From contig NZ_CP043626.1 in the NCBI RefSeq assembly GCF_008807415.1, positions 3,224,001 through 3,288,000 of the forward strand: a stretch of DNA of 64,000 nucleotides. Reading direction: 5' to 3'. Below are positions 54,013 through 60,398 of this stretch, piece by piece. Each line of letters starts with the position of its first letter. Position 1 is the stretch's first letter. This DNA comes from Pseudomonas denitrificans (nom. rej.). GTDB lineage: Bacteria > Pseudomonadota > Gammaproteobacteria > Pseudomonadales > Pseudomonadaceae. The position numbers and the translations under genes were made by a program. The notes beneath the pieces were generated by a model. That model worked only from the letters and a program-made list of their open reading frames with translations. It was not told the origin of the DNA and did not search any database.

Positions 54013-55083
54013 GTGTCCAGCCGCCCTGCCCTGCCCGTCGCCCGTATCCCCGTCAGTCTGCAATGGCTGGCCCTGGCGCTCGGAGCCGGAGGCGCCGGGC
54101 AACTGCTGACCTGGCTCGGCATCCCCGCCGCCTTGTTTCTCGGCCCCATGCTGGTGGCCATCGCCTTTGGCGTCAGCGGTGCGGAAATCCGCCTGCCGCG
54201 CCAGGCCTTCCGCCTGAGCCAGGGCTGTATCGGCCTGCTGGTCGCCCACGCCATGAGCTGGTCGGTGCTGCAGGCGATGGTCGCTTCCTGGCCGCTGATG
54301 CTCAGCGCCACCTTGCTCACCCTGCTGCTCTCGGCCGTGGTCAGCTACGCCATGGTGCGCTTCGGCGGCATCCCCGGCAGCACCGCCGCCTGGGGCACCG
54401 CGCCGGGCGGCGCGGCGGCCATGGTGTCGATGGCCGAAGCCAACGGCGCCGACCCGCGCGTGGTCGCCACCATGCAGTACGTGCGGGTGGTCTGCGTGGT
54501 CATGGCCGGAGCCCTGGTCGGTCGCCTGCTGGGCATCGAAGGCGGTGGCTCGGCAGCGCACAGCACGCCGATCGTCGACACCGCCACCCTGCCCGACCTG
54601 ATCAACTGCCTGCTGCTGATCTTCGTCTGCACCACCGCCGGCGCCAGGCTGCCAGCCGGCCCGCTGCTGGTGCCGCTGGTGGCCGGCGCCGTGCTGCAGC
54701 TCACCGGCGTGCTGCACATCACCCTGCCGCACTGGTTGCTGGCCACAGCCTACGGGGTGATCGGCTGCTACATCGGCCTGCGCTTCGACCGCGAAAGCCT
54801 CGCCTACGTCGGCCGCCACCTGCCGGCCATGCTGGTCAGCGCACTGGCCCTGATCGCCAGCTGCGCGCTGTTCGCCTGGATGCTGGCGGCCATCACCGGG
54901 ATGGACTTCCTCTCCCTCTATCTCGCCACCAGCCCCGGTGGCCTGGACGCCATGGCGATCATCGCGGTGGACACCCACTCCGACGTCGGCCTGGTGCTGG
55001 CGATGCAGACGCTGCGGCTGTTCGTGGTGCTGTTCACCGGGGTATCCGTCGCACGGACAGTGATCCGCCTGAGCCGCGCCTGA
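54013..55083 (+). CDS. AbrB-family membrane protein (AbrB duplication; putative ammonia monooxygenase family)
   Basis: The 356-residue protein has about ten transmembrane segments in two similar halves, with repeated glycine-rich loops (GGIPGSTAAWGTAPGGAAAMVSMAEANGADPRVVATMQYVRV and TSPGGLDAMAIIAVDTHSDVGLVLAMQTLRL). These match the AbrB/YgbN-like family, once misnamed ammonia monooxygenase, whose function is unclear but is likely transport. It starts at GTG 54013 with CGGAG upstream. The divergent LysR gene probably controls it. Confidence 0.85.
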   Translation: MSSRPALPVARIPVSLQWLALALGAGGAGQLLTWLGIPAALFLGPMLVAIAFGVSGAEIRLPRQAFRLSQGCIGLLVAHAMSWSVLQAMVASWPLMLSATLLTLLLSAVVSYAMVRFGGIPGSTAAWGTAPGGAAAMVSMAEANGADPRVVATMQYVRVVCVVMAGALVGRLLGIEGGGSAAHSTPIVDTATLPDLINCLLLIFVCTTAGARLPAGPLLVPLVAGAVLQLTGVLHITLPHWLLATAYGVIGCYIGLRFDRESLAYVGRHLPAMLVSALALIASCALFAWMLAAITGMDFLSLYLATSPGGLDAMAIIAVDTHSDVGLVLAMQTLRLFVVLFTGVSVARTVIRLSRA

Positions 55084-55107: not shown

Positions 55108-55190
55108 CGTAGGATGGGTGGAGCCCAGGCGATACCCATGCTGACGGTGCCGGGAGTGATGGGTATCGCTTCGCTCCACGCCATCCTACG
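55108..55190. repeat. REP/BIME element, left copy flanking the permuted oxidase
   Basis: This 83-base element with inverted ends GTAGGATGGGTGGAGC and GCTCCACGCCATCCTAC differs by one base (an extra G in the spacer) from the copy at 56655-56736, in the same orientation. Between 55191 and 55345 I see no gene. Confidence 0.88.
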
Positions 55191-55345
55191 TTGGTGTTTC
55201 GCTGCCGCGTCGGCAGAGACTGAGACCCTGCTCGTGGCAAGGCGAAAACCAGTACAGATCGCCGGGCGGATTGCCCATGTCTGCCTCTTGCAGTGATTAC
55301 CGCCAGACTTCTAAGGTCGTCGCTCTTTCACCGAGCGAGCACGAT

Positions 55346-56584
55346 ATGGACAGCCTTCGCCACCGCCCCACCGCCTTCCACGTCACCCACTGGAGCGACG
55401 ATCCGTTCAGCCGTGGCGCCTACAGCACCCTGCTGCCCGGTGCGACGCCGGAGCATCGGCGCCGGTTGGGCGAAGTGCTGGGCGGCAAGCTGGTGCTGGC
55501 CGGCGAGGCCTGCAATCCCGTCGCGCCGGCAATGACCCATGGCGCCTGGAACGACGGCCTGCGCGCGGCCGAAGCGGCCATCGAAAGTGGCGCCCGCCGG
55601 GTACTGGTGATCGGCGCTGGCTTCGCCGGGATTGCCGCCGCACGACGACTGCGCGAAGCCGGGATCGACTGCGTGGTGCTGGAAGCCCGCGAGCGCATCG
55701 GCGGCCGCGTCCACAGCATTTCCCTCGGGCCGGTACGAGTGGACGAAGGCGCCGCCTGGCTGCAGCACTTCGACGACAACCCGCTGGCCGCCCACGCCCA
55801 GCATCTCGGCCTGCCGTTGCGGGACACCGATTTCGGGCAGCCTCTGGCCGCAGCCGCGGATGGCCCGGTGCCCGATATCGATGCGGCCTGGGAAGCCCTG
55901 CGCGCCGGGATCGACCGCAGCCTGCCACTGGCGGATGGTGTCGCGCGCTACCTCGAAGAACGCGACGAGCCGACCCGCCGCGCCACTCGTTTCGCCCTGG
56001 ACGCCAACCTGATCCTGGAGGCCTGCCTGCCGCTCGAATCGCTGGCGGTCGATGCCCTCGACGAAGAAGGCGTCGGCGCCGGCGACCGCTTCCTGCCGCA
56101 GGGTTATTCACAGCTGGCCGCGCATCTCGCCGAAGGGCTGGATATCCGCCTGAACCAGCCGGTGACCGCCATCGACTGGTCTGGCGAGCAGGTGCGGGCG
56201 GGTGGCGAAATCGTCGATTTCTGCGTCTGCTCCGTCCCTGTCGGTGTATTGCGCGATATCCGCTTCACCCCGCCCCTGCCGGCGGCCCAGCAGGACGCGC
56301 TGGCGCACCTGGGCATGGGGCAACTGGAAAAGGTCGTGCTGCAGTTCGACGAGCGCTGGTGGCCGGTGTCGCCCTCGGGTTACCTGCGCTGGTACGACAC
56401 GCCAGCCAGCTTCGGCGAGTGGCTGGATCTCACCGAAGCCGTGGGCACGCCGACCGTTGCCGGGCTGATCGCGGCGGATGCGCTGGAGCGGGTGTTTGCC
56501 GGGCGCACGGACCAGGAGATTGCGCTCGCGGCCTGCGACGCCCTTCAATCGTGGGCAGATGCAGTGCGGAGCGCGCAGTTGTAA
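55346..56584 (+). CDS. FAD-dependent amine oxidase-like protein with circularly permuted motif order
   Basis: The 412-residue protein has all parts of a flavin monoamine oxidase but in swapped order. Residues 15-75 carry the motifs that normally end these enzymes (HWSDDPFSRGAYSTLLPG, then LVLAGEACNPVAPAMTHGAWNDGLRAAEAA). Only then comes the N-terminal FAD Rossmann motif VLVIGAGFAGIAAARRL (G90, G92, G95), Glu113 (ribose) and ARERIGGRV. The chain ends with the segment that usually precedes W-x-DP (GLIAADALERVFAGRTDQEIALAACDALQSW). It seems intact and under coding constraint. ATG at 55346 is chosen as the last before the first motif; earlier in-frame ATGs exist. Substrate unknown. Confidence 0.82.
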   Translation: MDSLRHRPTAFHVTHWSDDPFSRGAYSTLLPGATPEHRRRLGEVLGGKLVLAGEACNPVAPAMTHGAWNDGLRAAEAAIESGARRVLVIGAGFAGIAAARRLREAGIDCVVLEARERIGGRVHSISLGPVRVDEGAAWLQHFDDNPLAAHAQHLGLPLRDTDFGQPLAAAADGPVPDIDAAWEALRAGIDRSLPLADGVARYLEERDEPTRRATRFALDANLILEACLPLESLAVDALDEEGVGAGDRFLPQGYSQLAAHLAEGLDIRLNQPVTAIDWSGEQVRAGGEIVDFCVCSVPVGVLRDIRFTPPLPAAQQDALAHLGMGQLEKVVLQFDERWWPVSPSGYLRWYDTPASFGEWLDLTEAVGTPTVAGLIAADALERVFAGRTDQEIALAACDALQSWADAVRSAQL

Positions 56585-56736
56585 GAGCGCGCCATGCGCG
56601 CGATCGCGGGCATGGCCTGCTCCTACAGATTGGTGCTGAACTGTGCCGCAAAAACGTAGGATGGGTGGAGCCCAGGCGATACCCATGCTGACGGTGCCGG
56701 AGTGATGGGTATCGCTTCGCTCCACGCCATCCTACG
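56581..56736. repeat. Two adjacent REP elements, right side of the permuted oxidase
   Basis: A GTAAGAGCGCGCC..GGCCTGCTCCTAC unit at 56581-56628 overlaps the oxidase stop. A GTAGGATGGGTGGAGC element follows at 56655-56736 and is almost identical to the copy at 55108-55190. Confidence 0.88.
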
Positions 56737-56776: not shown

Positions 56777-57331
56777 CTACAACCCCTCCAGCGTCAGATC
56801 GACCAGGCGCTCGACATAGGCCACTTCCAGCTCCTCGCCGGAGAACAGGATGCGATACACCAGCGGCGCCATCAGCCGGTCGACGATGCGGTCCAGCTCC
56901 GGCAGCTTTTCACCGCGCTCCCTGGCGCGCAGCAGGATGATGTCGAACTGGCCGCAGGCGATCGCCATGCAGCGTCCCGAAGAACCGCCGCCGGCTGCCA
57001 GCAGGTCGAGCACCACGGCGCGGCCGGGTACCGAGGCGGTTTCCTCCATGTACTGCTCGCCCCAGGCCAGCAGGTCGCCGCGCAGGCTGCCGGTGTCCGC
57101 CGGCTCGGCGTCGGGGCGGATGCGCTGCAGGGCGACGTCGCCGAGCAGTTCGCTCAGGTCACCCCAGCGCCGGTAGATGGTCGACGGCGTGACGCCGGAG
57201 CGCGCAGCGATCATCGGCACGGTCAGTTCCGAGCGGTCGCGCTCCTCCAGCAGCTCTGTCACAGCCTTGTGCACCGAGGCCTGCACCCGCGCACTGCGGC
57301 CGCCCGGTCGAACACCCTGATTGATTGCCAT
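56777..57331 (-). CDS. TetR-family transcriptional repressor
   Basis: The 184-residue protein has a TetR HTH near residues 15-60 (VHKAVTELLEERDRSELTVPMIAARSGVTPSTIYRRWGDLSELLGDVAL) and a helical C-terminal domain of the TetR_C_11-like kind. It is divergent from an MFS exporter gene with 88 bases between starts, and two inverted repeats lie in that gap. ATG at 57331 follows AAGG. Confidence 0.9.
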   Translation of the reverse strand: MAINQGVRPGGRSARVQASVHKAVTELLEERDRSELTVPMIAARSGVTPSTIYRRWGDLSELLGDVALQRIRPDAEPADTGSLRGDLLAWGEQYMEETASVPGRAVVLDLLAAGGGSSGRCMAIACGQFDIILLRARERGEKLPELDRIVDRLMAPLVYRILFSGEELEVAYVERLVDLTLEGL

Positions 57332-57340
57332 AAGCACCTT

Positions 57341-57419: not shown

Positions 57420-58625
57420 ATGGCACACACCCAATCGAAAAGCGCGTCCGGCTTCTCACCCCGGGCTTCGGCCTGGTTGCTGACCGCCATCCTCATGGCC
57501 TTCCTCGCCGCCGCTGCCGCCCCCACGCCGCTGTATGCGCTGTACCGCGAGTCCTGGCAATTCTCCCCGGCGCTGCTGACCCTGGTGTTCAGCATCTACG
57601 CCGGCGGCCTGATGCTGGCGCTGCTGGTGTTGGGCTCGCTGTCCGACCACCTCGGCCGGCGCCCGGTGATTCGCGCCGCGCTGATCCTCGAATTGCTGGC
57701 GATGGCGGTGTTCCTCTACGCCAACTCGGTGGAGCTGCTGATCCTCGCGCGCCTGCTACAGGGCTTCGCCACCGGCATCGCCACCAGTGTGCTGGGCGCG
57801 GCGATGCTGGATATCGACCGCGAGCGCGGCCCGCTGATCAACAGCGTGGCGCCCATGCTCGGCATGGCCATGGGCGCGCTGGGCAGCAGCACGCTGGTGC
57901 AGTTCGGCTCCGATCCGCTGCATGAGGTGTATGTGTGGCTGCTGGCGGTGTTCGCCCTGGGCATAGTGCTGCTGCGCTGGCTACCGGAAAGCATCAGCCG
58001 GCAACCGGGCGCGCTGGCCTCGCTGAAGCCGCGCATCCGTATTCCGCCGCAGGCGCGCCGCGCGTTCTGGAGCGTGGCGCCGCTTAACGCCAGCCTCTGG
58101 GCGCTGGGCGGCTTCTACCTGTCGCTGGGGCCGACGCTGGCGCGGCAGGTGACTGGCCTGCAGGTGCCGATGATCGGTGGCGGGCTGGTGTCGCTGCTGT
58201 GCCTGTGCGGTGCGCTGGCGATCTTCGCCCTGCGCCACCAGCCGGCGGCAGTGATCCTGCGCCGCGGCGGCCTGGCGCTGATCTTCGGCCTGCTGATCAC
58301 CCTGCTCGGCGTGGACAGCGGCAACCTCTGGCTGTTCTTCCTCGGCACCGCAGTGGCCGGGCTCGGCTTCGGCGGCGCCTTCCTCGGCGCCTTGCGCTCG
58401 GTGGTGCCGCTGGCCCACGCCCATGAACGCGGGGCGCTGATGGCGAGCTTCTATGTGCTCAGCTACCTGGCCTTCAGCGTGCCGGCGATCCTCGCCGGGC
58501 TGGCGATCCAGCGTTACGGCCTGATCGCCACCACCAACGGCTATGCCAGCCTGCAGATTCTCGCGGCCTCGCTGGTCCTGCTGCTGTCCTTGCGCGCCCC
58601 CTCCGCACAGAAGGCGCAGGCCTGA
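57420..58625 (+). CDS. MFS exporter
   Basis: A 401-residue major facilitator with about 12 membrane spans and the DHA1-type loop GSLSDHLGRRPVIRAAL after TM2, plus RLLQGFATGIATSVLG in TM4. Divergence from a TetR repressor suggests an inducible efflux system for a small toxic compound. No ribosome site of note precedes the ATG, as the operator repeat occupies that region. Confidence 0.87.
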   Translation: MAHTQSKSASGFSPRASAWLLTAILMAFLAAAAAPTPLYALYRESWQFSPALLTLVFSIYAGGLMLALLVLGSLSDHLGRRPVIRAALILELLAMAVFLYANSVELLILARLLQGFATGIATSVLGAAMLDIDRERGPLINSVAPMLGMAMGALGSSTLVQFGSDPLHEVYVWLLAVFALGIVLLRWLPESISRQPGALASLKPRIRIPPQARRAFWSVAPLNASLWALGGFYLSLGPTLARQVTGLQVPMIGGGLVSLLCLCGALAIFALRHQPAAVILRRGGLALIFGLLITLLGVDSGNLWLFFLGTAVAGLGFGGAFLGALRSVVPLAHAHERGALMASFYVLSYLAFSVPAILAGLAIQRYGLIATTNGYASLQILAASLVLLLSLRAPSAQKAQA

Positions 58626-60275: not shown

Positions 60276-60398
60276 TGGGAGCTCTCGCACGAGCTCCCAG
60301 GAAAAACGCCACCGCAGGATGGGTGGAGCCTAGGCGATACCCATGCTGCCAATGCGACAGGAATCGATGGGTATCGCTTCGCTCCACGCCATCCTACG
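60276..60398. repeat. Hairpin plus REP/BIME after the SDR gene
   Basis: TGGGAGCTC / GAGCTCCCA (60276-60299) forms a 9-bp stem 26 bases after the SDR stop but lacks a T-tract. A GTAGGATGG-family element follows at 60313-60398 with a different spacer from the copies at 55108 and 56655. Confidence 0.75.

Follow-up and report, generated by a model that had tools for sequence, protein, structure and literature searches.

The window, a stretch of 64,000 nucleotides, contains a gene for a 412-residue protein that lies between an AbrB-family membrane protein gene (54013-55083) and an opposite-strand TetR gene (56777-57337), with an MFS transporter gene beyond (57420-58625). A longer version of the open reading frame begins at a TTG at 55271. 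The features discussed here are the following, with coordinates in the window.

55108..55190, + strand: imperfect palindrome on the upstream side, nearly the same in sequence as the downstream copy
55346..56584, + strand: gene for a predicted circularly permuted flavin amine oxidoreductase, 412 amino acids plus stop, ATG start
55346..55591, + strand: residues 1-82, C-terminal in normally ordered relatives, with W-S-D-D-P, GAYS, LAGEA, THGAWNDG and the last helix (64-80)
55586..55597, + strand: residues 81-84, predicted turn that links the former C-terminal helix with Rossmann strand beta-1 (helix 64-80 and strand 85-89 in the model)
55592..56581, + strand: residues 83-412, the Rossmann-led body, ending in helix 389-411, which normally precedes W-x-x-DP
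55607..55630, + strand: V88IGAGFAG95, FAD dinucleotide-binding motif, located in the alignment of permuted and normally ordered rows
56330..56332, + strand: codon of K329, a conserved lysine by its alignment column
56655..56736, + strand: downstream palindrome copy, near-identical to the upstream one

The two palindromes, together with a third related copy at 60314-60348 that differs at 2 of 35 bases, resemble repeated extragenic palindromes.

The protein is unusual in the order of its parts. Motifs that usually close the chain in this family are found at its front, as W16-S-D-D-P20, G24AYS, L51AGEA and T64HGAWNDG, and extend from W16 to G71, in agreement with the preliminary description, which had assigned them to residues 15-75. 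The FAD Rossmann motif, said to start at residue 88, is indeed present there as V88IGAGFAG95. The C terminus had been described as the piece that usually comes just before W-x-DP, and the protein does end in helix 389-411, the helix of that place in normally ordered relatives. The Pfam family PF01593 matches the native protein in two stretches, the best of which pairs residues 93-404 with profile positions 1-365 of 443 at 193.9 bits. This score is far over the curated cut-off of 19.8 bits and places the protein in the PF01593 superfamily. However, the topology of the MAO, LSD and PAO proteins, with the Rossmann part first and the segment from W-x-x-DP to AGE last, is reversed here.

Joining the two ends was expected to restore the usual order, and this is what is observed. 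The rotated protein (residues 83-412 followed by 1-82) matches PF01593 in a single stretch, 11-408 to positions 1-442 of 443, and scores 204.9 bits, compared with the native score given above. Against LSD2, the native protein aligns in three out-of-order stretches (residues 84-164, 245-345 and 8-76 to chain positions 337-416, 523-631 and 703-771), and the stretch nearest the query N terminus is the one that matches nearest the C terminus of the LSD2 chain. The rotated protein aligns with LSD2 in two stretches, in order. All 412 rotations of the window protein were then scored against a profile to which only normally ordered relatives, 34 in number, had contributed. The native order scores 241.9 bits and the median rotation 223.4 bits, and the maximum of 323.6 bits, 81.7 bits over native, falls at residues 81-84. 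One rotation at this position, which also gives the single Pfam stretch, restores end-to-end collinearity with the normal order, as expected of a circular permutation.

In a control scan at every third residue, 33 of the 34 normally ordered sequences score best unrotated and the remaining one at a shift of one residue; as these sequences are the profile's own members, they show just that the method behaves. Permuted relatives give a corresponding optimum. Once N-terminal extensions are trimmed, it lies at most 12 residues from the start of the Rossmann match in 239 of 242 proteins, which indicates that the optimum is not due to chance. The exceptions are P0096, which has 283 amino acids, and P0107 and P0243, both of which start inside the moved segment. 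Without trimming, 35 of 42 permuted proteins agree, and the seven with an optimum far from the Rossmann start consist of six with N-terminal extensions and P0163. Circular permutation is thus supported by the rotation tests, and also by the predicted fold and the relatives described below.

The AlphaFold model of the 412-residue protein consists of one confident fold (pLDDT 94.1). Helix 64-80 is followed by a four-residue turn and then by strand 85-89. The short linker had been placed earlier at about residues 76-86; in the model the connection is made by residues 81-84. In structural alignments residues 79-409 match LSD2, LSD1 and polyamine oxidases in order, and residues 1-78 fall outside the alignments. 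The rows shown by the structural searches carry the names of LSD, MAO, polyamine oxidase and similar proteins, and a solved permuted member may exist beyond them. The predicted fold is that of the amine oxidoreductase superfamily, and about four residues form the turn where the old ends meet. The preliminary description had named a predicted fold without an intact FAD site as evidence against its reading; the superfamily fold is predicted and the residues of the FAD motif are conserved.

Relatives were collected as 246 distinct proteins, from the best 120 of 1472, 1552 and 1372 matches, with 8000 candidates scored in each search. Motif order was classified with two segment profiles cut from a 66-row permuted alignment (A1). 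Among the matches listed, 242 of the 246 relatives have the permuted order, and the other four are short fragments that lack one or both segments. No normally ordered protein is present among these 246 listed matches. The gap between the two segment matches is 2-11 residues in the 242 permuted relatives, whose source names include Pseudomonas, Actinoplanes, Catenuloplanes, Kineococcus, Cryobacterium, Streptomyces, Acidimicrobiales and Microbacteriaceae. In named species genomes, 80 of 188 loci were listed, of which 63 are normally ordered, 8 could not be assigned and 9 are permuted. The permuted loci derive from three Pseudomonas, an alphaproteobacterial MAG, Winogradskya humida, Actinoplanes lutulentus, an Actinomycetota MAG, a Microbacterium MAG and Cryobacterium breve. 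One relative, P0012, is 87% identical to the window protein and is filed under 'Enterobacterales bacterium', perhaps from a mislabelled Pseudomonas genome. The names of the closest relatives suggest that the window itself belongs to a Pseudomonas of the nitroreducens group.

Within the genus, the gene occurs in 15 of 25 genomes, the window's own included; it was not found in G017, which is filed as the same species, nor in 9 other genomes among the 25 searched. Near full-length matches are present in 19 of 298 genomes of the family (15 in the window's genus and 4 in two other genera), in 3 of 398 genomes of the phylum sample (all of the same genus, one being the window's own) and in 1 of 369 genomes of the class sample (its own genome), with 4-6 first-look candidates scored per genome, so that misses are possible. 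Elsewhere in the class sample of 369 genomes, no other such match appeared. Two family matches, in G072 and G245, begin only at model positions 58 and 70 and are left out of the order classification. From these genome and protein counts, the gene appears common in the genus, patchy in the family and recurrent in Actinomycetota. Orthologues with the same order were thus found in other pseudomonads, as had been suggested, but they are not confined to them.

This distribution bears directly on whether the arrangement is an artefact. An assembly error, a frameshift or a fusion with the remnant of a deleted neighbour could produce such a protein, and the near-identical palindromes that flank the gene are a possible spot for misassembly or recombination. 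However, the same order is found in the 242 listed relatives, in the 15 genomes of the genus and at the 9 permuted named loci, and dN/dS is low in both parts of the gene. Comparison of the window gene with seven relatives (six distinct, as L009 and L094 are identical) gives values of 0.027-0.351 over residues 1-82 and 0.126-0.305 over the remainder. As judged from these coding sequences, both parts show purifying selection among Pseudomonas copies. The concern that residues 1-80 are the tail of a deleted neighbour, joined by an assembly error, can therefore be set aside, and an artefact of any of these kinds has a negligible probability. Hundreds of related bacterial proteins share the rearranged order, so the gene belongs to a genuine enzyme branch maintained by selection and is not a product of misassembly.

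The names given to the listed relatives in databases (such as flavin monoamine oxidase family protein, tryptophan 2-monooxygenase and HpnE) are silent on segment order, and because such names ignore it the branch may have escaped notice. 'Tryptophan 2-monooxygenase' is no more than a name that the sources attach to relatives. HpnE (TIGR03467), the name on one relative, was rejected, with 48.7 bits compared with an NCBIfam equivalog cut-off of 283.05.

The position of the breakpoint is shared. By eye, all 52 permuted rows in the alignment, from all three clades described below, have their termini in the loop between the last helix before W-x-x-DP and the strand that follows it. An N-terminal extension of at least 24 residues precedes the moved segment in 83 of the 242 permuted proteins, and 62 of these 83 carry both a twin arginine and a lipobox-like pattern, as found with simple patterns and not with a signal predictor. 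The branch without an extension is presumed cytosolic and includes proteins from Pseudomonas and Actinoplanes. The putative exported, Tat-lipoprotein-like branch includes proteins from Microbacteriaceae and Streptomyces. Three normally ordered loci (L018, L023 and L030) also start with twin-arginine-like stretches by eye.

The number of origins was addressed with trees of 34 of the 63 normally ordered loci (C segment at E < 1e-5; L045 excluded), the set that also made up the profile of normal order, and the 52 permuted rows, which consist of the window, the 9 loci and 42 of the 242 proteins, hand-picked for spread. In a quick tree of all 86 rows, two changes are needed for the permuted rows. 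A careful tree was made from 69 rows, after 12 normally ordered rows (long-branched, outlying or near-duplicate) and 5 permuted rows (taken as near-duplicates) were dropped. It contains a permuted clade of 35 with support of 100/100, alongside two smaller clades, both exported, with 9 and 3 members. A single origin of the permutation is recovered in 0 of 200 bootstrap trees. However, forcing a single origin costs only 0.55 log-likelihood units, and the AU test does not reject it (p-AU 0.469). It is a tentative possibility, on balance doubtful, that the permutation was made more than once, with the extension-less and exported branches each arising from a different normally ordered ancestor by a cut in the same loop and a join at the same helix-strand turn. 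If so, natural permutation would have struck this loop repeatedly, and exported members would carry their signal peptide ahead of the relocated segment.

The rearrangement itself may have arisen by what would be the simplest route, tandem duplication and in-frame fusion with later trimming of both ends. A duplicated-fusion intermediate was sought among candidates up to 1.75 times the query length, and a second copy of either segment is present in 0 of the 242 permuted proteins; full-length duplications beyond that length lie outside the reach of the protein search. A different history would be a domain swap, in which the gene gained the end of another amine oxidase gene at its front and lost its own original end, an outcome that mimics permutation. 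The nearest normally ordered row does differ between the two parts, being L030 for the body and L043 for the moved segment, which is just ~80 residues long. Against this, the distances of the N and C parts are correlated at 0.83 over all 86 rows, 0.85 over the permuted and 0.82 over the normally ordered rows, and both L030 and L047 rank among the top six for each part. A domain swap is therefore considered very unlikely.

Residues of the FAD site are strongly conserved and include the superfamily's GxGxxG motif, the acidic end of beta-2 and R-x-R-x-GGR. G90, G92 and G95 are present in 52/52 permuted and 34/34 normally ordered rows. Among the permuted rows, G119, G120 and R121 are found in 52/52, R117 in 51/52 and E113 in 50/52, with D in the remaining 2. 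K329, which we take to be the flavin-site or active-site lysine of the family, is a lysine in 52/52 permuted and 33/34 normally ordered rows. The presumed cytosolic branch also has invariant Q140, N145, E328, Y346 and D361 (38/38 each). Other positions distinguish the branches. Position 63 is Met in 38/38 rows of the presumed cytosolic branch, Thr or Ser in 14/14 exported rows and Thr in 25/34 normally ordered rows. Position 28 varies among rows of the presumed cytosolic branch (T28 in the window protein); exported rows have Tyr or Phe there. The M63 codon is at 55532-55534 in the window. We presume that 28 and 63 correspond to the aromatic-cage tyrosine positions of MAO-B; because they hold T28 and M63, a MAO-like substrate seems unlikely. 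These patterns suggest a functional flavin site whose pocket differs from the MAO pocket.

Taken with the model, the sequence makes it highly probable (about 0.88) that this is a permuted, folded flavoprotein of the MAO/LSD/polyamine-oxidase superfamily. Amine chemistry is likely, though held with less confidence. The lack of the MAO-B aromatic residues at the two presumed cage positions, with M63 invariant in the window's branch, and the placement of the gene after two SDR-like genes in one Pseudomonas group, which requires no amine substrate, would also be consistent with a folded protein that is no longer an amine oxidoreductase and either binds FAD for other chemistry or has a structural role. 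However, K329 and the FAD motifs are intact throughout the permuted rows and the PF01593 score is high, and such a change of function is considered unlikely. The protein is most likely a working FAD-dependent amine oxidoreductase in which the last helix has become joined to strand beta-1 and the new ends lie in one loop. By its sequence, the old C-terminal segment, with the AGE motif and the last helix, leads the chain and runs directly into Rossmann strand beta-1, and the new N and C termini lie in the loop between the helix and strand that precede W-x-x-DP. FAD would bind normally, and K329 may assist as a small amine passes a hydride to FAD. The resulting imine would then be hydrolysed, and oxygen or another acceptor would reoxidise the flavin.

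The genomic context is conserved only in part. The layout of AbrB-family gene, permuted gene and TetR gene is also found at loci such as L009, L010 and L089-L097. In a different arrangement, seen in three genomes (L124 4721-7573, L125 4974-7855 and L126 6210-9174, the places of L100-L102), two SDR-like genes lie directly upstream in the same direction, and their products show 30-35% identity to the window's SDR. By eye, MFS-like genes are also present near the oxidase in L124-L126, as are thiolase-like genes in L124 and L126. In the 13 loci for which neighbours were called, no arrangement shared across phyla was seen, and neighbourhood conservation is confined to subgroups. As it was not seen beyond them, no substrate is assigned from the neighbourhood. 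A role in catabolism or detoxification would fit the TetR and MFS genes, as well as the two upstream SDR-like genes of some pseudomonads. The available part of one report describes a cytochrome c partner for other family members (PMC12224317). No CXXCH motif is present in the roughly called neighbour genes of the 13 loci, and a cytochrome c partner was not seen there.

In two sister genomes (G009 and G010), the AbrB-family and TetR flanks are retained at 90-96% DNA identity and the gene is absent, which indicates a presence/absence gene. The gap at the empty site in G010 (L135, 1808-1888) contains 44 bases that match window positions 56585-56628. That in G009 (L136, 4236-4365) contains a perfect 25-base inverted repeat.

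Comparison with known systems places the protein in a familiar superfamily with an altered order. Flavin amine oxidases, which include monoamine oxidases, histone demethylases and polyamine oxidases, have two domains interleaved along the chain and have been studied intensively. The window protein shares with the PF01593 superfamily (MAO-A/B, polyamine oxidases, LSD1/LSD2 and bacterial amine oxidases) its sequence family, the predicted fold over residues 79-409, the FAD motifs and the lysine. It differs in its segment order, which is rotated by ~82 residues: what are chain ends in the other members are joined here, and its own termini occupy a loop that is internal to their chains. The amine-oxidase domain of LSD2/KDM1B (PDB 4fwe) has the normal order, and LSD2 has extra domains that are absent from the window protein, a 412-residue bacterial enzyme. 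Among the closest normally ordered relatives found are those of Mycolicibacterium sp. CR10 (L030), a groundwater gammaproteobacterium (L018) and a gammaproteobacterial MAG (L023). Their twin-arginine-like N-terminal stretches resemble by eye those of the exported permuted branch but, unlike the window protein, they have the Rossmann part first and the W-x-x-DP-to-AGEA part last.

To our knowledge, no natural circular permutation has been known in the flavin amine oxidoreductase superfamily. Engineered permutations of another flavoenzyme, Old Yellow Enzyme, exist. Eukaryotic glutathione synthetase is a natural circular permutation according to the available part of PMC2876114. It represents the same kind of event, a homologous enzyme of the same fold with moved termini, but the enzyme is unrelated. 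Among the matches listed from the open-licence literature, which were partly titles and the starts of abstracts, no description of a permuted amine oxidase was found, in keeping with the preliminary description, which knew of no described permuted member. The available portion of PMC12667903 contains none of the terms amine oxidase, oxidase, flavin, FAD or monoamine. From a conserved and recurrent permuted branch it would follow that the interleaved fold tolerates an FAD-contacting end at the front of the chain. Such a branch would also mark a permissive loop for protein engineering and offer a natural case in which to test the importance of segment order for folding and flavin capture.

Amine oxidases also occur at the ends of longer frames. 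In an Acidimicrobiia MAG (L027, 3472-7260), a 1263-codon frame encodes an Amidohydro_3 domain (391-805) and a normally ordered amine oxidase (854-1261). L057 (3454-7227) is of similar length and also has a terminal amine oxidase; at E <= 1e-5 its Pfam matches consist of the oxidase and its NAD-binding part.
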